Of a DNA stretch of 64,000 bases, positions 4,994 through 62,560 are shown one piece after another; the first letter of the stretch is position 1; the number at the start of each line of letters is the position of its first letter. The DNA lies in assembly GCA_903813345.2 (NCBI GenBank), contig CAIIXF020000006.1, positions 24,001,936 through 24,065,935 of the forward strand, written 5' to 3'. The stretch comes from Owenia fusiformis (lineage: Eukaryota; Annelida; Polychaeta; Sabellida; Oweniidae). The notes below the pieces were generated by a model. That model ran no database searches and was not told where the DNA came from. It saw only the letters and a list, made by a program, of their open reading frames with translations. The position numbers and the translations under genes were made by a program.

Positions 4994-6237
4994 TTTTTTT
5001 TTTTTTTTTTTTTTTTAAATGAACGACAAAATATGTACATAATATTTACAGTGTACAATACATAATCAATTAGATGAGCACTTAACTATTTTTCGACATG
5101 TTTAAAAATCAATCAGAATTAAAAATACTGTCAGCTAAAAAATATATGCTGGTCTTATTCTGTTTACCACTGGCTATACAACTTTTAAATTGGATAATCT
5201 TCATAGATGTAGTCTTGGATTATCCAGGGTTACCAAATAATATTTCATTACATGTAATATCTGGGAAATGCTTATCCCATAAATATTTAACTTTTCTGCA
5301 TTCATAGAAATAATGCACCAGGTTGTCCTGAACTAAACAATCTTGACACAGTTCATTTTGTACTTCATCAATTTGATATTTATACATGAATTTTCTGGTA
5401 GGATATATTCTATGCATAATTTTCCACTGTAATTCTATCATTTTTGTTTCTATAAATAATTCTTTTGTAAGGGTCCATTGTTTTTCACTAAATCTATCTG
5501 GACCAATGAGCAATCTATCTTTAGTTAATTCAATTCTTACATTTTTACATGTTAAATCTTTTACACTAATGTTTCTAAACGATAAAGACTCACTGTGCTG
5601 TGGAATAGTTCTATTTATTAACAGTCTTGAAATAATAGAATTGACTGTTGTATACTAAAACCAAGTTTCACCATTTCTTACGAGAGTTTCACACAGTCGT
5701 TCATAAGATATCATTGTGTTATTTACAAGTACATCTGAAATATAAATTAGACCTGATCTGATCCAATTTGTAAAAAATATAGGGTTTTGTCTAAATAATA
5801 CAATTCTGTTATTAAACAAATTATCATTTTCAATTCCATGGTTCTTATTGCAATCTAACCATGTTATTAACAATTTTTTATAAAAGTTTGACTTAATGTT
5901 ATCAATACCTATGAATTTAGCCTCTGATACAGAAGACTTAAACACACTCATGTTTTTGCCTAGTTTATTAAAATACAATGAGGGTAATACTCTAAATGCA
6001 CCATTGCCTGGTGTTGACAGGTTTTTAACCCACTTTAATAAATAAGCTTTCTGGATATCATGTACATTAATCATTTTTAAACCACCTTTGTTATAATCCT
6101 GTATTATGATATCTCTTTTTACTTTTTCTGGCACCCGTTTCAGGTCTTCCTCTTTAAATTTGCTTTTTGACCAGAGGAATTTAAACATGAGAACATTGAT
6201 TCGATTAAGCAAGTTGTCAGGCATAACAAAAGTTTGC
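4994..6237 (-). pseudogene. L1/Tx1-type LINE, 3' part of ORF2 with poly-A tail
   Basis: On the minus strand the frame from about 6235 to 5220 reads as the region after the reverse transcriptase of L1/Tx1-type LINEs. It has the phrase MPDNLLNRINVLMFKFLW, then KGGLKMINVHDIQKAYLLKW, then a C-terminal segment with LQWKIMHRIYPTRKF and a CQDC...HYFYEC metal-binding motif. One in-frame TAG at 5655-5657 interrupts it. The 23-base T run at 4994-5016 is the poly-A tail seen from the other strand. The missing upstream part continues at 10761, beyond the inserted 6238-10760 element. Confidence 0.9.
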
Positions 6238-6339
6238 TAGCTATGGCCAATAGGGTACCTCTAGCAAACTGAAAACAATCTGCTTCTCCATTGACTCCTA
6301 TGTTAAATCACTTACACATTGCATTTTTTCTGTAAGATT

Positions 6340-7885
6340 GTTGACAATCTGCAATCTGAATTGCAATCTGTTCTATACTTCTCTCTCAATGTTACAATGT
6401 GCAGATTGTTGCAATGTGTGCAGTCTGCAATCTGGATTGTACAATCTGTTTTATACTTCTCTCAGAATGGCCAACAATCTTAACAATGTTAGCAATGTTG
6501 CAATGTGCAGATTGTTGCAATGTGTGCAATCTGCAATCTGGATTGTACAATCTGTTTTATACTTCTCCTTTCAGAATGACCAACAATCTTAACAATGTTA
6601 GCAATGTTGCAATGTGCACATTGTTGCAATGTGTGCAGACTGCAATCTGGATTGTACAATCTGTTTTGTACTTCTCCCCTTAGAATGGTCAACAATCTTA
6701 ACAATGTTAGCAATGTTGCAATGTATAGATTGTTGCAATGTGTGCAAACTGCAATCTGGATTGTACAATCTGTTTTGTACTTCTCCCCTCAGAATGGTCA
6801 CAATCTTAACAATGTTAGCAATGTTGCAATGTGCAGATTGTTGCAATGTGTGCAATCTGCAACCTGGATTGTGCAATCTGTTTTATACTTCTCGTCTCAA
6901 AATGGCCAACAATCTTAACAATCTTAGCAATGTTGCAATGTACAGATTGTTGCAATATGTGCAAACTGCAATCTGGATTGTACAATCTGTTTATACTTCT
7001 CTCAGAATGGCCAACAATCTTAACAATGTTAGCAATGTTGCAATGTACAGATTGTTGCAATGTGTGCAAACTGCAATCTGGATTGTACAATCTGTTATAT
7101 CCTTCTCCCCTCAGGATGGTCAACAATCTTAACAATGTTAGCAATGTTGCAATGTACAGATTGTTGCAATGTGTGCAAACTGCAATCTGGATTGTACAAT
7201 CTGTTTTATACTTCTCCTTTCAGAATGACCAACAATCTTAGCAATGTTGCAATGTGCAGATTGTTGCAATGTGTGCAAACTGCAATCTGGATTGTGCAAT
7301 CTGTTTTATACTTCTCCTTTCAGAATGGCCAACAATCTTAACAATGTTAGCAATGTTGCAATGTGCACATTGTTGCAATGTGTGCAAACTGCAATCTGGA
7401 TTGTACAATCTGTTTTATACTACTAAGAATGGCCAACAATCTCAATGAACAATCTTAACAATCTAAGCAATGTTGCAATGTGCAGATTGTTGCAATGTGT
7501 GCAAACTGCAATCTAGATTGTACAATCTGTTTTATACTTCTCCCCTCAGAATGGTCAACAATCTTAACAATGTTAGCAATGTTGCAATGTGCAGATTGTT
7601 GCAATGTGTGCAAACTGCAATCTGGATTGTGCAATCTGTTTTTACTTCTCATCTCAGAATGGTCAACAATCTCAACAATCTTAGCAATGTTGCAATGTGC
7701 AGATTGTTGCAATGTGTGCAATCTGCAATCTGGATTGTGCAATCTGTTTTATACTTCTCTCAGAATGGTCAACAATCTTAACAATGTTAGCAATGTTGCA
7801 ATGTGCAGATTGTTGCAATGTGTGCAATCAGCAATCTGGATTGTGCAATCTGTTTTATACTTCTCTCAGAATGGCCAACAATCTT
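6340..7885 (+). repeat. 109-bp tandem array, left arm of the foldback element
   Basis: About fourteen copies of a unit with modal period 109 bp (range about 100-117). Each contains AACAATGTTAGCAATGTTGC, then GCAGATTGTTGCAATGTGTG, then TGCAATCTGGATTGTACAAT, then a TTTATACTTCTC spacer. Frames open through all phases because the unit has few stops, so they are not genes. Confidence 0.95.
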
Positions 7886-8824
7886 ACTCACAGTACTGCC
7901 TTTATTAATATTCCAAAAGAATTATCTTATTTTAATAGTTTTTTTAACTATTGTATTTCTAGGGAAGTTATTGTATCGTAATGGATGGCTGTGGGTTTTG
8001 AGTTCTATGATGGTCCAAAGGCTCAATCCAAGAGAGACCTTATTAATTAAATGTATAATCCTCTTTGGTCTTATAGCTTTTCACAATTGTAAACAACAAA
8101 AGGCTGAAGACGGAGATACAAGATGTCATCGATTTTAGATGGATTTGTAGTTTTGACCAGATCAGAGTGCACTCACCCGCTTTCAGTAAAGGGTTAAATC
8201 AAATTTGACCAGGCAATTGTTGGTAACACTTTTATTTTTTGATAGACAATGACCATTGTTAGAACACACATTTCAAAAGTTGAAACTAATTTGATTTCCA
8301 GTGAATAATTTGGATTCAGATGTCATCTTGAAAATAGAATAGGCCTAAATGGATTCCCCTCTCAAAGGATATCAAAGACTAGAGATGAGTTTAAAGTAAT
8401 TAACTTTTGAAAACTTTTTCGGATGGGATTTCTATTTTCTAAAATAATATGCTTTATTTCAAAATGATACAAGATACTTTTTTAAAGACCATTCGCAAAT
8501 CTTGTTAGCGCAAAATTAATGAATATAATTTTATGTACATATATTTTTCATTGACGCACTTGATATTTAGTGAACAATTTCTGCGTATTAAATTTTCAAA
8601 AAATTTCCATAATGATTGAATTATGAAACATTTATTAGTTATCACATAACAATGATAAATATAGGACTTTGCAGAATAGAAAGTTTAAAATGGAAATGTC
8701 TTATTGAAATGTGAAAACTCTGCATTGAGCAAGTGTAAAAAGCTCTAACATTGAAATAGCTGATAGATATTCCAGTATACTCATATGAGCAGAGATATAG
8801 AATTTCAAGCCGAAATATTAGGAT

Positions 8825-8961
8825 AATTCATTTGTTTACTCCTTGACTATTTATGAAGTTTGGGGTATGGTTTACTCCAATTATACATAGCCAATTTGAT
8901 GCATGCTAAATTATTAACTAGGTCATATTACTAAGCATGTTTTGAGTAAACAAATGAATTG
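8825..8961. repeat. 17-bp inverted repeat
   Basis: AATTCATTTGTTTACTC at 8825-8841 recurs as its reverse complement at about 8945-8961 inside the foldback core. It could be the ends of a very small palindromic insertion. Confidence 0.6.
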
Positions 8962-9301
8962 GATAATCTTCCATTAAGTATGTCATAGAAAGGTTAATTG
9001 AGTAAAAGTTGAATAATAATTTTATAATATTTAGATTTTCATAATCTTCACATCTGAAATTATTAACAGAATAACATGTTTTTGCCAAGATTCTATTACA
9101 TGATAAATCCAAACAGTTTGGGAAAAGTTTAGGAAAAGTTATCATTACATTGCATCCCATGTAATTCTATTTTCAATATAAGAAATAAAATAAATCAGAC
9201 TGAGATTTTTATGATTTATCTATAATAACAATACAATGCGATACAATACAATCTTAGTTGCAAGTGGTGTTCTGAATCAGAGCTTTCAAAGCATTAAGGA
9301 A

Positions 9302-9718
9302 TCAGCTGTAATTCATGACAAAAACTGTTAACATGAATTTTTTGAAATGTTGCTTTATTTCATGGTCTTTATTGCATTTCTCCATTTTCCAAGCCAACTG
9401 ATTTTCGTTTATACTGGAACTTATAGGTGGGAAGCGAACTTCTTCATTATACTTTTCCATGTAAACATCTGTTGTGAGTTTGCCATCAATCTTGGTCAAA
9501 CTGTCAGAAAAATCTAACAATTCCTCACCAGTCATGATGTCAGCATTTGCTTTGCTGAAGACAACTGCGGATTTGTTCAATAATTCTTTCTTGCCCAACC
9601 CAAGGGCTTCCAGATCATCAAATGCAGCAATGGCATCATGCCTCTTAAATTGTCTGCTGTATGATGATAGGAATCGTGAAAGATATACTGTTTTTCCTGG
9701 ATATGTTTTAATCTTCAA
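9302..9718 (-). CDS. Exon-like ORF of unknown function in the foldback core
   Basis: About 138 residues of balanced composition and no low complexity, so it reads like real or recently real protein. It contains the phrases FDDLEALGLGKKELLNKSA, FSKANADIMTGEELLDF and TDVYMEKYNEEVRFPPI. There is no ATG at the beginning. The bases just upstream on the minus strand (CATATTTCTAAG) look like a splice acceptor, so it is more likely a terminal exon than a complete gene. I recognise no domain. It may be element-encoded or a captured host exon. Confidence 0.45.
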   Translation of the reverse strand: MKIKTYPGKTVYLSRFLSSYSRQFKRHDAIAAFDDLEALGLGKKELLNKSAVVFSKANADIMTGEELLDFSDSLTKIDGKLTTDVYMEKYNEEVRFPPISSSINENQLAWKMEKCNKDHEIKQHFKKFMLTVFVMNYS

Positions 9719-10204
9719 CTTAGAAATATGAACATGTTCACATTGACTTCATTTCAACTAACACCTATGATATATGGATGAATCAAAGTTTGAATAAGTT
9801 TACATTTCACTGTAACTCCAACTGGCTCTGTATTGGCCATGTTAATTAATATTCATTATCTTGAACAGTATTTAATTTCTTCTTAATGAGCAGATATCAC
9901 TTTGGGGAGAGACTGCACATAAACAGCATCTCATTAATACCATATGATACGATGAAACAAAGCATGGGGGCTACATACAACTCTCCCACTTCAAAAGAGA
10001 GTTCTTAATAAAAAATAAACAAAGTAATGCAAGTAATTAAAACTATATTTCAGCACGTTCATAATAAAAGATTTAAAATTCTTGCACCAATCTTTAACTG
10101 ACTCCAATAGTGTACACATTATATTGCACATTATATTTGCTATTGAGTAACCATCTAAATAGTTTACTATTACAAAGATTGTGTATATCGTATAATAATA
10201 TTAA

Positions 10205-10735
10205 TTATTAACATTGCACAATCCACATTGCAACAATATTCATATTGCAACAATGTTAAGGTTATATTAGATTCTGAAAGTATAAACAATATTGCAACAA
10301 TCTGCACATTGCAACATTGCTAAGATTGTTAAGATTGTTTGCCATTCTGAGAGAAGTATAAAACAGATTGCAACAATCCAGATTGCAGATTGCACACATT
10401 GCAACAATCTGCACATTGCAACATTGCTAAGATTGTTGCCATTCTGAGAGGAGATGTATAAACAGATTGTACAATCCAGATTGCAACAATGTTATATTTC
10501 ACATTGTCAGATTGCAACAATCCAGATTGCAGATTGCACACATTGCAACAATCTGCATATTGCAACATTGCTAAGATTGTTGCCATTCTGAGAGGAGATG
10601 TACAAACAGATTGTACAATCCAGATTGCAACAATGTTATACTTCACATTGTCAGATTGCAACAATCCAGATTGCAGATTGCAACAATGTTAACTTTCACA
10701 TTGTTAGATTGCAACAATCCAGATTGCACATTGTT
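10205..10735 (-). repeat. Inverted tandem array, right arm of the foldback element
   Basis: The same vocabulary as the left array (ATTGCAACAATCCAGATTGC, AACATTGCTAAGATTGTT) but reverse-complemented, in about four to six irregular copies at spacings near 97 and 145 bp. It is much shorter than the left arm, so the arms are unequal. Confidence 0.9.
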
Positions 10736-10760
10736 TTTGGGTACCTACTGGCCATGATTG

Positions 10761-12375
10761 AAGTTTGCATTAAATAACTAAACTGAGATGTCAATTATGA
10801 CTTAATCAGTGTAATTCTACCCAGTAATGTTAAATGTCTACTTTGCCAGCTTTTCATTATTTTCTCGCATTTTTCGAATTTAGACTGCACATTGTCATCT
10901 AAATCAAATATATGTTTTGTTGTGGAAAAAGATACACCTAACATTTTCATAACATTGTTTGGGAATAGCTTCCATTTAATATCTAAAAATTGTTCCTGGC
11001 TATATATTTGTCTGCCAAGCCACATGGCTTCTGTTTTACGTTTATTTACATCTTAACCTGATATTTCTTTAAATGAGCTATAAACAGTAAATAGTTGTCT
11101 AAGTGATGCTTCATCTTTAACAAAATTTGTGGTATCATCAGCATACTGTGATATCTTAACTTGTTTATTGGATATCAATATATACCTTCAATTTGATCAC
11201 ACTGATGAATTTTACAAGCTAATATTTCACACGCTACAATAAATGCCAATGGGGCGAAATTACAGCCCTGCCGAATGCCCCTTTCAAGTCTAAAGGACTC
11301 AGAAATCCAACCATTGTTATTTATACAACTAACTGTTTCATTATTTAAAACATTTATCCAGGTCAAAAATGAATCACCAAAGCCAAATCTTCTAAATGAA
11401 TCTAAAATAAAGTCTTTAGATATACTATCATACGCAGCCGAAAAATCCACTCCTACAATTATGCCATCTATTTCTTTATCTAATGAATATTCAATAATAT
11501 CATCAATTAATCGAAGAGTCATACCAGCATATCTACCATTGATATATCCACACTGATCTTCATTAACAATCGATTTAATCACTGATTTCAACCTATTTGC
11601 AAGAGATTTGGCTGCTATCTTATAATCACTGTTTAGAACTGATATGGGGCGCCAGTTAGGCAGTTCCTCTCGGGGAAGGTTCCTTTATAAATTAATGTTA
11701 TAACTGCTTGTCTTTGAGACCATGATAATTGACCATTTACATAGCCATCATTCAATGAATTCACCACTAGATTGTTAATTTTACTCCAAAATACTTTCAT
11801 AGATGCTGATGTTAGTCCATCCAATCCTGGACTTGAGTTATTGTCCATTGTTTTTAGGGCTTGGCTACATTCTTCTATAGTTAGAAGACCTTCACAATGA
11901 TTGCGCTCCAGCTGAGACAGTTTGGGGAGATCAATGCCTTGGATAAATTGATCTAGCTTTATGGGGTCATAATTAAGGATACTCTTGTATCGAGTAGTGT
12001 AAAATTGCACTTGTTCCTTCATAATATTCTCCTTTGATGTGACAGTAACACCACCTGCTGTTCTGCATGATGACATTGTTTTCTGCTGTGCTTTAGCTTT
12101 TTCCAGGTTCAGGAAATAACTGGTGTTCCTCTCACCCTGCTCAGCCCAAATGGCCTTCGAACGAATTTGAGCCCCCCTGGCTATGGAAATACACAAAGTG
12201 CTGAATTCTGTTTGTAACTGGGTCACCTTCGCTACTAAATTAGGATTGTTAGAATCATTCGCAAGTTCTGAGGATGCTATTTTAAGTTTATCTCTCACAG
12301 ATTTTAACTTTGAATGATTAATTTTGGCATTTTTCTTGCTGTACAGTATAGATTGTCTCTTTATTCTAGACTTGG
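10761..12375 (-). pseudogene. L1/Tx1-type LINE, reverse transcriptase part of ORF2
   Basis: Minus-strand frames give, in order, a pre-RT region (RSKAIWAEQGERNTSYFLNL), the finger motif SSPGLDGLTSASMKVFW, then RPISVLN, then DFSAAYDSISKDF and RGIRQGCNFAPLAF. The catalytic box QYADDTT follows near 11120-11150, and the end is LLGRITLIKS. The frame is broken by single-base shifts near 11670 and 11175, a TAA near 11055 and a stop at about 10796-10798. It is therefore dead. It continues on the far side of the foldback element at 6229. The 5' end is truncated near 12375: no endonuclease domain is seen. Confidence 0.92.
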
Positions 12376-12569
12376 TTTGTCATAGGCTTCAATCAATGGT
12401 AAAAACTTGCAAAACATGTAGTCACTTGATTTTATGATTTATCAAAAAGTGTTGGTTGTTGAACGAATAAATAGAATAACTTAAAAGAATTTTAAAATTG
12501 TATAAATGGTAACTGGCCCACACTTTTTAACAAATGTTGACAAAGTCATAAAAAATCACTTTATTTACA

Positions 12570-13205
12570 TGACAAGTGTAGTCAGAGGCTGTTAACATGG
12601 CAGATAGAGTCAGAGATTGTTAACATGACAGATGTAGTCAGAGGTTGTTAATATGACAGATGTAGTCAGAGATTGTTAACATGACAGATGTAGTCAGAGG
12701 TTGTTAATATGACAGATGTAGTCAGAGATTGTTAACATGACAGATGAAGTCAGAGGTTGTTAATATGACAGATGAAGTGAGAGGTTGTTAACATGGCAGA
12801 TGTAATCAGAGGTTGTTACCATGGCAGATGTAGTTAGAGGTTGTTAACATAACAGATGTAGTCAGAGGTTGTTACCATGACAGCTGTAGTGAGAGGTTGT
12901 TACCATGACAGATGTAGTGAGAGGTTTTTAACATGGCAGATGTAGTTAGAGGTTGTTAACATAACAGATGTAGTCAGAGGTTGTTACCATGACAGATGTA
13001 GTGAGAGGCTGTTACCATGACAGATGTAGTGAGAGGTTATTATGGCAGATGTAGTCAGAGGTTTTTAACATGGCAGATGTAGATAGAGGTTGTTAACATA
13101 ACAGATGTAGTCAGAGGTTGTTACCATGACAGATGTAGTGAGATGTTGTTAACATGGCAGATGTAGTCAGAGGTTGTTAACATGACAGATGTAGTCACAA
13201 GTTTC
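12570..13205. repeat. 28-bp minisatellite, about 22 copies
   Basis: Tandem units of CAGATGTAGTCAGAGGTTGT followed by TAACATGA, with point changes (TTAACATGG, TTACCATGA, AGTGAGAGG). Alternating variants suggest a higher-order structure and stepwise amplification. It lies just beyond the truncated 5' end of the LINE. Confidence 0.95.
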
Positions 13206-21042: not shown

Positions 21043-21165
21043 CCCAGTTGTCCGAAACCCAGTTGTCCGAAACCCAGTTGTCCGAAACCCAGTTGTCCGA
21101 AACCCAGTTGTCCGAAACCCATTTTTCCGAAACCCAGTTCTCCGAAACCCAGTTGTCCGAAAAAT
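21043..21165 (+). repeat. 15-bp tandem repeat, left arm
   Basis: Eight copies of CCCAGTTGTCCGAAA, with the sixth and seventh copies varied to TTTTTCC and TTCTCC. Because 15 is divisible by 3 the array is open in several frames and yields pentapeptide repeats. These are not evidence for a gene. Confidence 0.95.
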
Positions 21166-21829
21166 TTAGTCATACTTTACCAGATAAAGGGGGACGCACC
21201 TCAAGCCAGTTTCATGTCATGTATTTGGCAAAATTAATGGCATGGATGCATTCTGATGTATAGATCTCTCTCTCACTTTGAATTGCATCCATTACACGGC
21301 GTTACCAGAATGACAGGAACGGGGGATTTATTTTACATTGTGATTCTAAAAAAGGTCATCAAAACACAATATATATTACGGAACAGTTGATCTTATCTTA
21401 TTCAATATATTTTATATAGGCAAAATAAAATGAAACATTTTGAAACCGATAAAATAAGTTAACGCATAAAACTTTAAGAATAAACAGTACACATATCACG
21501 TTGTCAAAATGTTTCGTCGCATTTAATTTCTTAGTCTCTGTCTCTTATCAAATCGTAAAATGTAAAAGAACAAAACATTCTAAACGTAATCACTTGGGAT
21601 TAACTGGAAACGAAGACAGGCTGTCCTCGTATCAAATTGGATGTTCTCCAATTCGCAAGAAGTTTCATTTTCGCCATGTACTCACTTCATCTTTTTGAAT
21701 TTAATCTCTATTTCTCGAACAGAGTACCTAAATGAAGAATAATTTTTGGTTTCAAAAGATGTACACGACGTCAACTTTACTAAATAAACGCCCAGTAGGC
21801 TCATTTGCGTGAAAAGCCGGTAGTTGTAT

Positions 21830-22650
21830 TTATACACTCCCCTCCATAAGTTTGGCAACCTTAGCTCCCCCATTGAACTACGTGTTAAAGCCTCTTTACG
21901 TTTGAAATTTTATTTACGATGAAATAGCGTATAATATTGATGGAAACGTAACTTTACTTTATTTCCAATACCTCCTAATTTTCTAGATTTTTTCCTCCAT
22001 AACAAGAGATCGAAAATTGAACCGATAAATTTGATGATTTTTTTAAAATCGTCATTCCCGTATAATCCAAGGGGAAATAGAGAGTTCGGGGCAAATCAGA
22101 ATCTTTTCAGTAAAAGATTCAGCAAATTTTTTTTGGTATAAAAAATTGAATTGTCTGACTTTTTTGTTCACTAAGTTTTAATTTATTTGATGAATACTAA
22201 ATTTATAGCGCTTCAAAGTCATTTTTGAAAATAATTTTTCGACTTATATTTCAATGGGAGAGTTTTCTTGAAAACCAATTTTGACTTTAAAGCCCGGTAA
22301 CTTTGTTGAACCTGAAGAAACATATCAATTCTTTGTTAAATAAAGTTAGCAAATTCAATTGCCTGCCTTACTCATATTTTGCAAGGACTTGGATGGATGG
22401 ATATTCTGTCATATGACGTGCGGTAAATCTACCATTTCCCATTGGATGACATGGGAATGACGATTTTCAAAAAGTCATCAAATTTATCATCAATTTTCGA
22501 CCTATTGTAATTTAGGAAAAAAATTGGAAAAAATTGATAAAATTTGAAGGTATTGGAAATAAAGTCAAGTTACGTTTCCATCAATATTATAGTTATTTCA
22601 TCGCCGGTTAAGTAAATAAAAATTCAACTTATGGAGGTGAGTGTATCTTC
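21830..22650. repeat. Large inverted repeat (palindrome 1 of the foldback element)
   Basis: Sequence from about 21836 to 22075 (CTCCATAAGTT..., TAATATTGATGGAAACGTAA, GATAAATTTGATGA) recurs reverse-complemented at about 22455-22645 with scattered mismatches. The arms are 190-240 bp and the loop about 370 bp. Likely a non-autonomous element or part of the arm structure. Confidence 0.8.
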
Positions 22651-23374
22651 TATTGACGGAGGATAATGTTTAAAGGGGCTACAGTGCCTGTGCGTAGGAA
22701 AACTACGCTTGCCTTGGGGACTCCGTACTGCGTATCCAGTTTTTCACACGCCGCAGGGTCGCCGTATAGAAATTATAACTCGGAGTTATAATATTTGTTC
22801 ATTTCTGTGGTCCCGTAGAAATCAACTGGCTCAACAAGATTGAATCATTATTTGTCAATGTTTCACGATCACTTTTCATTTGATATTACATCCTAGCACT
22901 ATGAATAACATTTATAAATTGCCCTGATGTAAATAAAATGAAAAAAGTATTATTTATCAACAGAAATTTAAAATTCACCATGCGGCTGCCGTGGGAAGTC
23001 CTATTGATCCTCATAAATTATCCCCTACTCATACTAAGTTAAAATGTGCCCATCGTGCGCCTAATGCTAATGGCGCTGTCACACTGCTCGTGTCCCGTCC
23101 CGTCTCTCAACGTACAAAGCATTCAGGCCAAAATTTAAGGAATAAGCTATAGTGAGCTGTTTCAGAACGCCGTCTGAAACGCCTTCTGATTCTGAACCCA
23201 CTGTATTCATTGGACGGTGGGAGGTCGTCCATGCTTACACTTTCAGTATCTGACCCTATTATCACACCAAACTAGTTCTCACTACGCTCTCGAGAACGGG
23301 CTTAAACTGTGTGGACGGATTGGAAGTACCGTATGGGGTCTACTTGCCTACTCGAAAGGGTAGTTCCAAAATTT

Positions 23375-23810
23375 CCACGTGGTCATCACTTTCTGCAATC
23401 ACGCGGTCTTCGACCGTTAATTGGAATTTTTGACCTACCAGATGCTTGAAAATCAAGGATTGCGAGTCTGATACTGCACCGTTTTTCTTCCATTATACCA
23501 TTACCTTCTGTCAGTGCATTACTTTATTGTAAAGAGTCTCTCGTTCTAGCAGCATTTTGGTCCCCACTCCCCAGCTGTTAGAAGGCCTTCTTACAGCTGG
23601 GGACCAAAATTACGCTGGAAGTAGGAACTCTGTTTAAGATAATAACGTACCATCAGAAAGAGATTTTTGTCATGCTTTGAATGGAACAAGTTTGAAGAAA
23701 AACGGTGCAGTATGAGACTCGTAATTGATTTTCAAATATCCGGTAGGTCAAAAATTCAAATTAACGGTCGAAGTTAGGACCGCGTGGCGACGTGGGGCAA
23801 AGGTTGAACT
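23375..23810. repeat. Large inverted repeat (palindrome 2) centred at 23585
   Basis: The centre is AGCTGTTAGAAGGCCTTCTT followed by ACAGCT, with almost no loop. The arms run about 200 bp outwards and share CTTCGACCGTTAAT, TTTTTGACCTACC, GAGTCTGATACTGCACCG (or TCTCATACTG) and ATTTTGGTCCCC. The left arm has a 7-bp addition near the centre. Near-loopless palindromes of this size are unusual. Confidence 0.85.
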
Positions 23811-24847
23811 GTCTCAGAATGTATTGGGAACGAGGTAGAAATAAAGAATTCATATGAACGAGTCATGCAAGATACTAAAGAGATACAAATGCATTTTGAT
23901 ACTCAGTTTTTGGGCAATTAAAACTCCCTGTCTGCATTGAGTATAGTTATTTATTGTCCGGTGTATAATTTTGAAACATTATCCTAAATTTTCACAAAAC
24001 TTTTTCAATGATTCTGCAATAGTTAATGGTTGACATCTATGGCACACTAAAAACGAATTTTTTTATGCAGGGTACGTACATGATACAGATCAAATCTTGG
24101 CTCTACTACAAACTATTACACACTTACTTCAACAGTTCAATATATCGCAAAAACACAGTTTTGATTTTGAACAATATCACCAATGGGAGAAATTCTTAAA
24201 TCTAAATGTTTGGAAAGGAATACGTTTCTACTAAAACATACAAACCTCTTATATTATGATGAAAAAAGGATAGACATCTGATATGTATATATGCCACATA
24301 TATCACATATATAAGTTATACGAAATGAGCATATTTTATTGATTTATCGAAAATTTGGACGAAATCTTAACAATGGGTGGTACTGAACAACCAAAATCTT
24401 CTTTTTAGATATTTTTCAGGGTAGAAATATTATCAATTGATATTGGAAAACATAATTAACCATATTTTATTGAGAAAAGGGAATGAAAAAATTATCAAAT
24501 GAATATATATAATTGTCACGGACGTCCATACGTTATTCGAATGAGATAGATATTCCTTTCGCCAGAATATTCTCTTCGACTGTGATGATTGTCTAAAATG
24601 TTGGCGGCAGTCTTGAATTTTCACCAAGAAGGAGTGCGATTCGTGCTGGACAATGCGGTTCAAAATTTGTAGAATGTCCATATAAGTCTATGTGCCGAGA
24701 ATCTAGTAAGAATATATATGATCGTGAACTTTCGGACCCATTATTGACCGGGCTAACCGATGTCAACGTGATACCAATGTTATGCTGTCCTGATTCGCGA
24801 GGTTGCGACAAGATTCGTTACCGCTAAGACATTTAATTTTTTAATTT

Positions 24848-24983
24848 TCGGAGAACTGGGTTTCGGAGAACTGGGTTTCGGAGAACTGGGTTTCGGAGAA
24901 CTGGGTTTCGGAGAACTGGGTTTCGGACAACTGGGTTTCGGACAACTGGGTTTCGGACAACTGGGTTTCGGACAACTGGGTTG
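24848..24983 (-). repeat. 15-bp tandem repeat, right arm (inverted)
   Basis: Nine copies of the reverse complement, TTTCGGACAACTGGG. The five inner copies (first from the left) carry the GGAGAACTGGG variant and the outer four GGACAACTGGG. The variant blocks imply local homogenisation. Confidence 0.95.
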
Positions 24984-40003: not shown

Positions 40004-40120
40004 GGGTAGAATAGTACCTAAGCTTTTGAGAGATGACATGTTGTGTTCCAGTTTATCTCGAGATCACAATTCATGTTGAAAACATTTTTGATTGATGTGT
40101 ACTTGTATATTTCTAGGAAA

Positions 40121-41920
40121 ATGGCGTCTAATTATAATGATGCACAGACTAACAGCATTCTCGAGGCTGCTGATTCAACTATGGGGAAACTCCTCTTCCC
40201 AATACATTGTCCCAACTCCAACTTCACAAGCCGTATAAAGGACCTATGGCAAGACGATGTCTTCTGTGACATAACATTATCAGTTGATGGAAAACAATTT
40301 AACTGCCACAAAATAATCTTGGCTGCCAACTCGCCCTATTTTCACTCGTTGCTGTCAAACGGAATGTCAGAAACATCAAAAAAAGTTGTTGAACTAAAAG
40401 ATATTTCCAGCCATGCAATGGAAAACATTCTCAACTATATTTACTTCAAAAATACATCAATAGGAGTGACTGAGGCAATTGAAATGTTGAAGACTGTTGA
40501 CATGCTTCAAATTGATAACAGCTTGAGAAGCCATTTGATGAATTATCTCATAAAACATGTTGCTGATGATAACTGTCTTGATATTTTAAACTTAACCAGC
40601 TGCATTAAACTCCCTGGCCTTTGGAAAGTCGCAAAAGAACATGCTTTAACAAACTTCAAAACAGTTTGGCGAACCGATGGATTGTTGGATTTATCAAAAG
40701 ATGTCCTCAGTGGGTACCTGGGTGATGATGGTTTGTTACTTGATAAAGAGGAAAATATTTTCAACTCTGTGTGTCGATGGATTGAAGCTGACTTCCAAAT
40801 GAGAAAGCAGTATGCAGGAGAGCTTTTCAAGACTGTGCGATTTTGCTTTATTGAGCCAAATATTCTGATTGATGATATAGAGGTGCATCCTTTCATGGAA
40901 GAGTTCTCCAGTCTTCGCAAGCATGTCATGACTGCCTTACGTCATCAGACGACACCATGCTACCAACACCAGGAACACTATTATAAGTGCAAGCCAAGGA
41001 TGTGCAACATTACCATTTGTCTTGTAAATCCCAGAAAAAGAGGATATAACCTTGTAGGACGTTTAACGAATAAAAACTCTCCAGTTTGCGTGAGGAAACT
41101 CTCATATGACACAATCAATTCAAGAGAGCATATTAACATTAGTAAGATCTCACGTTCCTGCCTAGTTGGGAGAACACTTTTCGTTTGTGATGGCACCAAT
41201 TTATGTAAATATACATTCAACCAAGAAACTGGACCGTACCCTGATAAAGGTTGGCAGAAATGTACAAACCGCACACAACAAGGAAACATAAGTGAATTCA
41301 CATTCACTCTTTGTGGTGACTACATTTATTTGATTGGGGGAGAACATCACGAGACAGGTGTAAGTTCAATCATAGATACCTACAATTGGCAGAAAGATCT
41401 CTGGGAGGTTCCCGATGGATTTGGTGTTGCATTACTTCATCCAGTTCGCTCCCACACAGCAGTGTCATTAAATAGTTCCATCTATATTTTTGGAGGATCT
41501 AATGCTGCTGGAAAAATCTCAAAATTTTTACAGATTTATAACACGCGGGATGGTCGGATATCAATGGGTCCCATGATGCTTCATTCTCAGTACTATAGTA
41601 CAGCTGTGTGTTACAATGATGAGATCTACAGCTTCTCTTCCAAACAAGTCATGAAATATACACCTGCAGAATCAAAATGGACTCAGCTTAGTATACCCTT
41701 ACCCCCTCTTGCAATACCTATGGTGTACCCCTCAGCAACAGTCTTTGGGAAGAACATCTTCATATTTGGGGGACTCGCCACAAAGGATCAAGCAGACTGC
41801 AACACGTTTGAGTATGACATCACCAAAGATAGCTATACAAAGGTTAACTCTTTTAAACCAGCATTTATGCTTGATGGTATTGCCACTCTTGTACACAACA
41901 ATCATCTTAAGTGGTTATAA
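40121..41920 (+). CDS. BTB-BACK-Kelch protein (KLHL family)
   Basis: Kelch-like proteins are usually substrate adaptors of Cullin-3 ubiquitin ligases. The chosen start (MASNYNDAQ) gives 599 residues, the usual family length, and has a good AAAATGG context. An in-frame ATG at 40043 exists but lies before a likely splice acceptor (TATATTTCTAG at about 40116). Domains: BTB at about 42-143 (DVFCDITLSVDGKQFNCHKI), BACK at about 148-255, and Kelch repeats from about 310 to the end (YLIGGE, IYIFGGSN, IFIFGG). Four blades are clear; the first repeats are diverged. All coding sequence is in one exon, so the gene may have only 5' UTR introns. I cannot assign a particular KLHL number. Confidence 0.93.
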   Translation: MASNYNDAQTNSILEAADSTMGKLLFPIHCPNSNFTSRIKDLWQDDVFCDITLSVDGKQFNCHKIILAANSPYFHSLLSNGMSETSKKVVELKDISSHAMENILNYIYFKNTSIGVTEAIEMLKTVDMLQIDNSLRSHLMNYLIKHVADDNCLDILNLTSCIKLPGLWKVAKEHALTNFKTVWRTDGLLDLSKDVLSGYLGDDGLLLDKEENIFNSVCRWIEADFQMRKQYAGELFKTVRFCFIEPNILIDDIEVHPFMEEFSSLRKHVMTALRHQTTPCYQHQEHYYKCKPRMCNITICLVNPRKRGYNLVGRLTNKNSPVCVRKLSYDTINSREHINISKISRSCLVGRTLFVCDGTNLCKYTFNQETGPYPDKGWQKCTNRTQQGNISEFTFTLCGDYIYLIGGEHHETGVSSIIDTYNWQKDLWEVPDGFGVALLHPVRSHTAVSLNSSIYIFGGSNAAGKISKFLQIYNTRDGRISMGPMMLHSQYYSTAVCYNDEIYSFSSKQVMKYTPAESKWTQLSIPLPPLAIPMVYPSATVFGKNIFIFGGLATKDQADCNTFEYDITKDSYTKVNSFKPAFMLDGIATLVHNNHLKWL

Positions 41921-61649: not shown

Positions 61650-62560
61650 CAGGCGGCGGGCGGCGTCTCACTTTTCAGCTTGTCTACAGGTTTCCAGCCA
61701 AACCATTTCAGGGATTCATCTGAAATTTTCAGGGATGTTTCTACATATCAACGTCAAGAACTGATTATTTTTTGGGCATTCTGGGTAAATCTTAAGGTGG
61801 CCATTTTGGATTTTCTGTCCTAAAATCTTCACTTTCAAGACTTGTCTACAGGTTTTCAGCCAAACCATTTGAGGGATTCATCTGAAATTTTCAGGGATGT
61901 TTCTACATATCAACGTCAAGAAGTGATTAGTTTTTGGGCATTCTGGGTAAATTTTAAGGTGGCCATTTTGGATTTTCCGTCCTAAAATCTTTACTTTCAA
62001 GACTTGTCTACAGGTTTCCAGCCAAACCTTTTGAGGGATTCATCTGAAATTTTCAGGGATGTTTTTACGTATCAATGTCAAGAACTGATTAGTTTTTGGC
62101 CATTGTGAGTAAATTTTAAGGTGGCCATTCTGGATTTTCCGTCCTAAAATCTTCAATTTCAAGACTTGTCTACAGATTTTCAGCCAAACCATTTGAGGGA
62201 TTCATCTGAAATTTCCAGGGATGTTTCTACATATCAACGTCAAGAACTGATTGGTTTTTGGGCATTCTGGGTAAATTTTAAGGTGGCCATTTTGGATTTT
62301 TTGTCCTAAAATCTTCACTTTCAAGACTTGTCTACAGTTTTCCAGCCAAACCATTTGAGGGATTCATCTGAAAGGGATGTTTCTACGTATGAAAGTTTAG
62401 AACTGATTAGTTTTTGGGCATTCTGAGTAAATGTTAAGGCTGCCATTTTAGATTTTCCGTCCTAAAATCTTGTCTATCGAGGCTTGTCTACAGGTTTCCA
62501 GCCAAACCGTTCAAATTTTTACATATGTTACACAGTGATAAGTTCTAGAGCTGATTAACT
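61650..62560 (+). repeat. 162-bp satellite array, left (plus) orientation
   Basis: Five to six units of 162 bp with CAAGACTTGTCTACAGGTTT, CAGCCAAACCATTTGAGGGA, ATTTTCAGGGATGTTTCTAC, AACTGATTAGTTTTTGGGCA and AAGGTGGCCATTTTGGATTT. The last unit is degraded. The same unit appears inverted at 63800-64000. Confidence 0.93.

Follow-up and report, generated by a model that had tools for sequence, protein, structure and literature searches.

What kind of element interrupts a long interspersed nuclear element (LINE) at positions 6238–10760 of a 64,000-nt stretch of the Owenia fusiformis contig CAIIXF020000006.1 (hereafter the window), and which enzyme moves it? An earlier note on this DNA had described the insert as a foldback transposon within a LINE, and the boundaries, duplications, empty sites and inverted arrays agree with that description. 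The insert, 4.5 kb in length, is almost certainly a foldback transposon, and its family has about 20 copies that can be recognised in this genome. Taken as a whole, we consider it probable that the element is a non-autonomous foldback cut-and-paste transposon moved by a Mutator (MULE)-type transposase.

The element is bracketed by an identical 8-bp duplication, AAGTTTGC, exact on either side, and by inverted tips, so that the boundaries proposed from the duplication stand. The left tip reads TAGCT-ATGGCCAATAGGGTACC and the right tip, read inward, CAATC-ATGGCCAGTAGGTACC; apart from the outer 5 bp (TAGCT left, CAATC right) the two are inverted repeats of each other (ATGGCCA-A/G-TAGG...GTACC). 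Joining the flanks without the insert and one duplication yields a minus-strand LINE frame that is continuous over the junction (...FSYLMQTFVMPDNLLNR...). The exact restoration of the LINE frame that had been claimed therefore holds at the junction only; elsewhere the frame was broken already, with a stop about 10 codons upstream of the junction and frameshifts further upstream, indicating a LINE that had decayed beforehand. With the 258-base join of the flanks as an empty-site query, the genome yielded six LINE copies matching 258/258 bases at 93–98%, together with a seventh (C12:8886497) spanning the junction in its first piece of 180 bases. The element is absent from the insertion site in all seven, and the possibility raised earlier, that LINE copies might carry the array at this same site, is answered by the six that cross it without any array.

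The tips recur elsewhere in the genome. Allowing up to three mismatches and counting the window copy, the left tip TAGCTATGGCCAATAGGGTACC gave 18 matches (15 exact, three with one mismatch), the reversed-pattern control giving 0; the right-tip pattern CAATCATGGCCAGTAGGTACCC gave 14 (nine exact, two with one mismatch, two with two and one with three), its reversed control giving 1, and the single three-mismatch match may be a chance match. The terminal stretch 6238–6345 is found at 94–100% identity at 17 places, the window copy included, with one further partial match at 89% and one of 38 bp. As the tips recur at unrelated sites, each with a different 8-bp duplication, and the controls are this low, the recurrence is more than chance; the further copies that the earlier note had proposed to look for, sharing the termini and having 8-bp duplications, do exist, and a lack of them, which would have spoken against it, was not encountered. 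We compared stretches from 20 places with tips or arms and seven more, of which three are divergent relatives, two contain another repeat and two are extensions. Both tips are present in 11 copies, counting L004, whose altered right tip is missed by the right-tip pattern; L016, with an exact right tip, an altered left tip and no duplication seen, stands outside this set, and in L001, L005, L006/L026, L013, L015, L017 and L018 to L023 one or both tips are missing from the fetched stretch. Nine of the 11 two-tipped copies show an 8-bp duplication that is exact without shifting the borders, and all nine are distinct (AAGTTTGC, TTCAAACT, CTCATTTT, GCTGTGTC, AAGGTTAG, GACTTTAA, ATTTTCCT, CATGTTTA and AACTTGTC); L011 has a 9-bp duplication and L004 none. 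Sliding the borders adds one or two matching bases in L007, L009 and L014. When 2,000 pairs of places were drawn at random from these loci, eight had at least 8 matching bases, a high control value as the loci are repetitive. Read in the orientation of the element, T occupies position 5 in 8/9 duplications, which with nine sequences only is no more than a hint of a bias. As a separate observation, L020 (G000 C13:14000-16508) and L004 (C13:29501-32031) have their right end and right flank in common, probably reflecting a local segmental duplication, not two insertions.

The arms of the window copy, 1.65 kb on the left and 0.55 kb on the right, are opposite in orientation, forming 217 inverted pairs of which the longest 25 extend over 64–82 bp at 89–98% identity and pair the left array with 10289–10591. 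Unequal arms of a 109-bp unit in opposite orientation had been noted earlier; orientation, inequality and the left unit are as described, whereas the right arm is more than a reduced number of left units, being built of related, rearranged pieces with a 144-bp period. The inequality is a property of the family, as the left arm exceeds the right in 11/11 two-tipped copies (1,088–2,226 bp against 191–1,020 bp, the 1,020-bp right arm being that of L011, where part of the stretch is unit-free). The number of full left units ranges from 5 to 17 in 18 of the 20 loci, so that arm copy number, for which a comparison had been suggested, does differ between copies.

We used the units themselves as a record of array history. 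The 196 full left units differ on average by about 10%, alike within (0.095) and between (0.101) copies. Compared with one other copy at a time, the nearest unit was closer elsewhere in 1,503 of 3,281 comparisons, with medians of 0.038 for the own and 0.037 for the other copy; homogenisation of the arms inside each copy was rejected on this equality. The pooled values (0.042 for the same copy, 0.009 for all others together) are an unfair comparison, far more units being searched elsewhere. Unit order was conserved beyond all 30 shuffles in 61 of 153 pairs of copies (median z −1.18), the signal being weak in most pairs, and for the right-arm units (61, from 13 copies) the left arm of their own copy was no closer than the left arms of other copies (mean rank 5.66, expected 6.00). 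A run of five similar units in L003 marks a local expansion. Most simply, the array would have been diversified already when the family spread, would have travelled with each transposition and would later have gained or lost units without homogenisation.

Deletions of the core have spread along with the element. L004, L005, L026, L007 and L012 share one deletion with recurring breakpoints (core positions 523/1843), and L001, L003, L008 and L010 form a second shared derivative. Over the first ~540 core bases the five copies of the first group differ by 0–1.1%, and other pairs among the 14 copies compared by 1.3–4.0%, the median over all pairs being 2.5% (L014 and L017 excluded). As these shared deletion derivatives have multiplied, the transposase must come from elsewhere, that is, the family moves in trans.

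The exon-like open reading frame (ORF) reported earlier is present in the core, with 148 amino acids. Pfam, NCBIfam and PDB sequences contain no match to it; all 15 matches of a genome protein search with it lie within family copies. In the window copy and L017 the frame is open; L002, L011, L014 and L018 have it broken by frameshifts or small deletions, and L001, L003, L008 and L010 have it truncated. Among six copies, 76 codons contain 10 amino-acid-changing and 3 silent variants, about as expected without selection; purifying selection is not seen. Pfam likewise gave nothing for nine further ORFs (47–115 amino acids) that lie within the core or overlap it. Compared with nine other copies, which retain it whole or in part, the window core lacks ~58 bp near 9271. 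Part of the core (8306–8827) matches 21 other places in the genome, mostly at 73–80%. The six of these that we fetched belong to a separate family of 1.6-kb repeats whose tips read TAGTCC (L024 1896–3508, L025 1976–3550, L028, L029, L030 and L031), in which four of six members have both tips and three of these four show 4-bp duplications (AATA, TCTA, AACA); L024 has an altered right tip and no visible duplication. This family was rejected as a lead to the transposase, being separate and having 4-bp duplications.

A transposase was not found in the family copies, either by the genome searches with MULE and P-type models or among the ten core ORFs compared with Pfam. Likewise, an autonomous copy sought by tips (up to three mismatches), by core DNA, by the ORF and by inspecting L021 and L022 was not found. 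The latter two are divergent relatives in which a single tip is followed by 3 or 1 units and then by unrelated DNA, their ORFs of at least 75 amino acids having been judged by eye. L018 was considered as a longer, gene-bearing copy and rejected, its extra 3.3 kb being other, nested DNA with pieces elsewhere in the genome (144 matches). This nested DNA (L018 2094–5430, and L032 2887–7267) has 250-bp inverted repeats, a zinc-finger-like exon and an exon encoding LLLDIGRYL. A relative of the L018 exon lies in L032 beside a 1,221-amino-acid frame, putatively similar to YqaJ-type nuclease proteins, and the 148-amino-acid ORF of the family gave nothing better than E = 5 against L032.

The genome does encode candidate transposases. 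The MULE model PF10551 has eight matches and the P-type model PF21787 has 13. We fetched four of the eight MULE loci (L034, L035, L036 and L037) as 9.5-kb stretches. L035 (2523–7417, 4,895 bp) and L037 (1303–6153, 4,851 bp) are complete MULE elements flanked by 8-bp duplications (GTTTGAAA and GTTAATTT, respectively), with arms made of inverted arrays of 16-bp tandem units and uninterrupted FLYWCH+MULE frames of 599 and 617 amino acids, both domains scoring above the Pfam cut-offs. Both appear to be autonomous Mutators of foldback form. In L034, a MULE gene lies between unequal arrays of a 15-bp unit, with ~3 versus 20 copies. All 13 P-type matches lie outside the family copies, which excludes an autonomous P element and leaves P-driven mobilisation to be weighed; among the five P-type loci fetched, none has inverted tandem arms around the gene.

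As this genome contains MULE foldback elements with 8-bp duplications, a Mutator-type transposase is the best candidate and the likeliest mover. Several findings weigh against this assignment. None of the eight PF10551 matches lies at a family copy, and only two of the four fetched loci fit fully, L034 having no visible duplication and L036 containing a gap and lacking flanking arms. L035 and L037 have tips (GGTAACC... and GGTTCC...) unlike those of the family, whose own tips occur in none of the four MULE loci; GTTGCAAT is likewise absent from all four 9.5-kb stretches, and the arm unit of the family, at ~109 bp, compares with 15–16 bp in the MULE elements. Moreover, hAT and most P transposases also yield 8-bp duplications, and the genome domain search was made with the MULE and P models, not with hAT, Merlin or others. 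Since tips and arm units of the family and of L035/L037 are dissimilar in sequence, we infer the link to these MULE genes from shared form. A hAT mover was tried and rejected on the duplications: hAT elements produce the form nTnnnnAn, and T stands at position 2 in 3/9 and A at position 7 in 2/9 family duplications, no search with a hAT model having been made.

Under the Mutator reading, each insertion would involve a staggered cut, by which 8 bp (in one case 9 bp) are duplicated. A transposase produced elsewhere would recognise the tips and possibly also repeated sites in the arms, join both ends, excise the element and reinsert it; the arms would move along as pre-made, diversified arrays, and units might later be gained or lost through unequal exchange or slippage. 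We predict that the arm repeats are transposase-binding sites. A candidate site is TTGCAAT. In the window copy its counts in the two directions are 28 and 1 for the left arm and 15 and 0 for the right, with none in the core; all but one have the same orientation relative to the nearest end, a tally inflated by the units being copies of one another.

Helentron- or Pearl-like tandem-repeat elements have neither target-site duplications nor terminal inverted repeats, and such an identity was ruled out by the presence of both here. By its tested features the element is a foldback, with tandemly repetitive long inverted arms, dispersed copies with duplications and variable arm length, and it probably belongs to Mutator. 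The family is new but of a known foldback type, nearest in form to Tetris and Tm1. These comparisons are by description. Tetris of Drosophila virilis is likewise a non-autonomous foldback with arms of ~220-bp tandem units in variable number and 8–10 bp duplications, for which no transposase was found and which its authors assign to Mutator on similar evidence (PMC4079207). Relative to that description the family has a unit of ~109 bp, an array starting ~150 bp from the tip, a right arm that is rearranged and shorter in 11/11 copies, and outer 5 bp that differ between the tips. Tm1 of root-knot nematodes, in which most copies are without transposase and one carries a Phantom-like Mutator transposase, shares the variable repeat number, unequal at the two ends of one element, and the non-inverted outermost bases (7 bp in Tm1, 5 bp here), whereas its unit is ~14 bp, its duplications are mostly 9 bp and a putatively autonomous copy is known (PMC3169594). 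The Muta families of Aedes aegypti, 10/12 of whose long-arm families have subterminal tandem repeats, resemble ours in their 8–9 bp duplications, long inverted repeats and non-autonomous derivatives with varied cores, and differ in their 9–15 bp subterminal units, a known transposase and the mobility of Muta1 in yeast (PMC5225508). The 8–10 bp duplications and inverted repeats over 100 bp by which the same source characterises MULEs are both found in our family (PMC5225508). Within this genome, L035 and L037 share 8-bp duplications, a length of ~4.9 kb for their elements and inverted tandem-repeat arms with it, and differ by their intact FLYWCH+MULE proteins and by tips and 16-bp units unlike those of the family. 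No paper on this foldback family was found, which is a weak negative.

Among the alternatives, two seem about equally unlikely and concern the ORF. In one, the mover would belong to a known or undescribed superfamily other than those searched, and the 148-amino-acid ORF would be a remnant of its gene. The ORF having no match in Pfam, NCBIfam or PDB and all its genomic matches in family copies is in line with this, as is the scarcity of the tips elsewhere, with at most one match at up to three mismatches once the family and its divergent relatives are set aside. The excess of changing over silent codons counts against a present function of the ORF, not against such an origin, and the MULEs of this genome already yield both 8-bp duplications and tandem inverted arms. 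A more elaborate form is less probable again: an undescribed superfamily in which the exon would be the gene relic, the longer left arm and the differing outer 5 bp would reflect ends that are handled differently, and the T at position 5 would point to an oriented, asymmetric target choice. In the other, the ORF would be a piece of a host gene captured in Pack-MULE style by an otherwise ordinary non-autonomous Mutator, a proposal that concerns the core only and is compatible with the Mutator reading; it would suit the exon-like frame, a plausible acceptor site (by eye) and the otherwise non-coding core, yet the genome protein search found no parent gene, its matches being confined to the family.

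Slightly less probable than either is that the same non-autonomous foldback transposon would be moved by a P-superfamily transposase, as for Galileo in Drosophila. P-type domains do occur in the genome, and other P elements produce 8-bp duplications. Inverted tandem arms, however, surround none of the five P-type genes fetched among the 13 matches, as against two of the four MULE genes. Galileo, like the family, has long arms with internal tandem repeats; in Galileo these repeats hold extra transposase-binding sites, and its arm lengths vary independently (PMC3573991, PMC3688188); its transposase is of the P superfamily and its duplications are 7 bp (PMC3573991), against 8 bp in 9/11 of our copies. 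It is extremely improbable that there is no transposon at all and that a satellite-like array was duplicated or inverted in place: a large share of the element is indeed tandem repeat, but the recurrent tips, the 8-bp duplications at unrelated sites and the empty paralogous sites speak against it, and the empty-site LINE copies refute it.

The origin and upkeep of repetitive foldback arms are unsettled, and the family is mainly of interest as material for that problem: its copies are recent, its arrays can be followed, and the same genome encodes candidate transposases. Intact MULE elements with short-unit arms occur here together with a non-autonomous family that has spread recently and whose arms, built of long units, are consistently unequal. 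Unit order that can be traced from copy to copy gives a direct view of the growth, shrinkage and movement of arms, and a transposase of the same species could be used to test whether arms are made up of transposase-binding sites.

Table 1 Features of the interrupted LINE and the inserted foldback element (window positions)
Feature	Position	Strand	Remarks
Host LINE, interrupted, downstream part of frame	5655–6229	−	
Target-site duplication AAGTTTGC, left copy	6230–6237	.	
Left tip TAGCTATGGCCAATAGGGTACC	6238–6259	+	genome matches including the window copy: 15 exact, 3 with one mismatch
Left subterminal stretch, ahead of array	6260–6386	+	
Left arm, tandem array	6387–7886	+	109-bp unit, 13.9 copies, 89% matches (Tandem Repeats Finder)
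Core	7887–10209	.	non-repetitive
Old, internally deleted relative of the separate 1.6-kb repeat family, inside core	8220–8849	+	
148-amino-acid open frame, exon-like	9302–9748	−	
Right arm, shorter rearranged inverted array, related to left unit	10210–10733	−	144-bp period
Right tip	10740–10760	−	
Target-site duplication AAGTTTGC, right copy	10761–10768	.	
Host LINE, interrupted, upstream part	10769–12379	−	stop and frameshifts already present; frames presumably reverse-transcriptase-like

Other repeats were observed in the window. A 28-bp minisatellite of 22.6 copies (12567–13197) adjoins the interrupted LINE. At 21043–24982 lies a second foldback-like element, in which a 3.7-kb core lies between two arrays with a 15-bp unit, CCCAGTTGTCCGAAA in 8 copies and its inverted counterpart TTTCGGAGAACTGGG in 9; the unit resembles the arm unit of L035 and no duplication was seen, both by eye. 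A tandem unit of 162–163 bp is common, again by eye, to window positions 61668–62508 and to L034 3584–4027, where it lies just inside the left array; the L034 case suggests that arrays of longer units can form part of, or be inserted in, a MULE element. Finally, the window contains an uninterrupted frame of 627 amino acids at 40037–41920, putatively BTB-Kelch-like.

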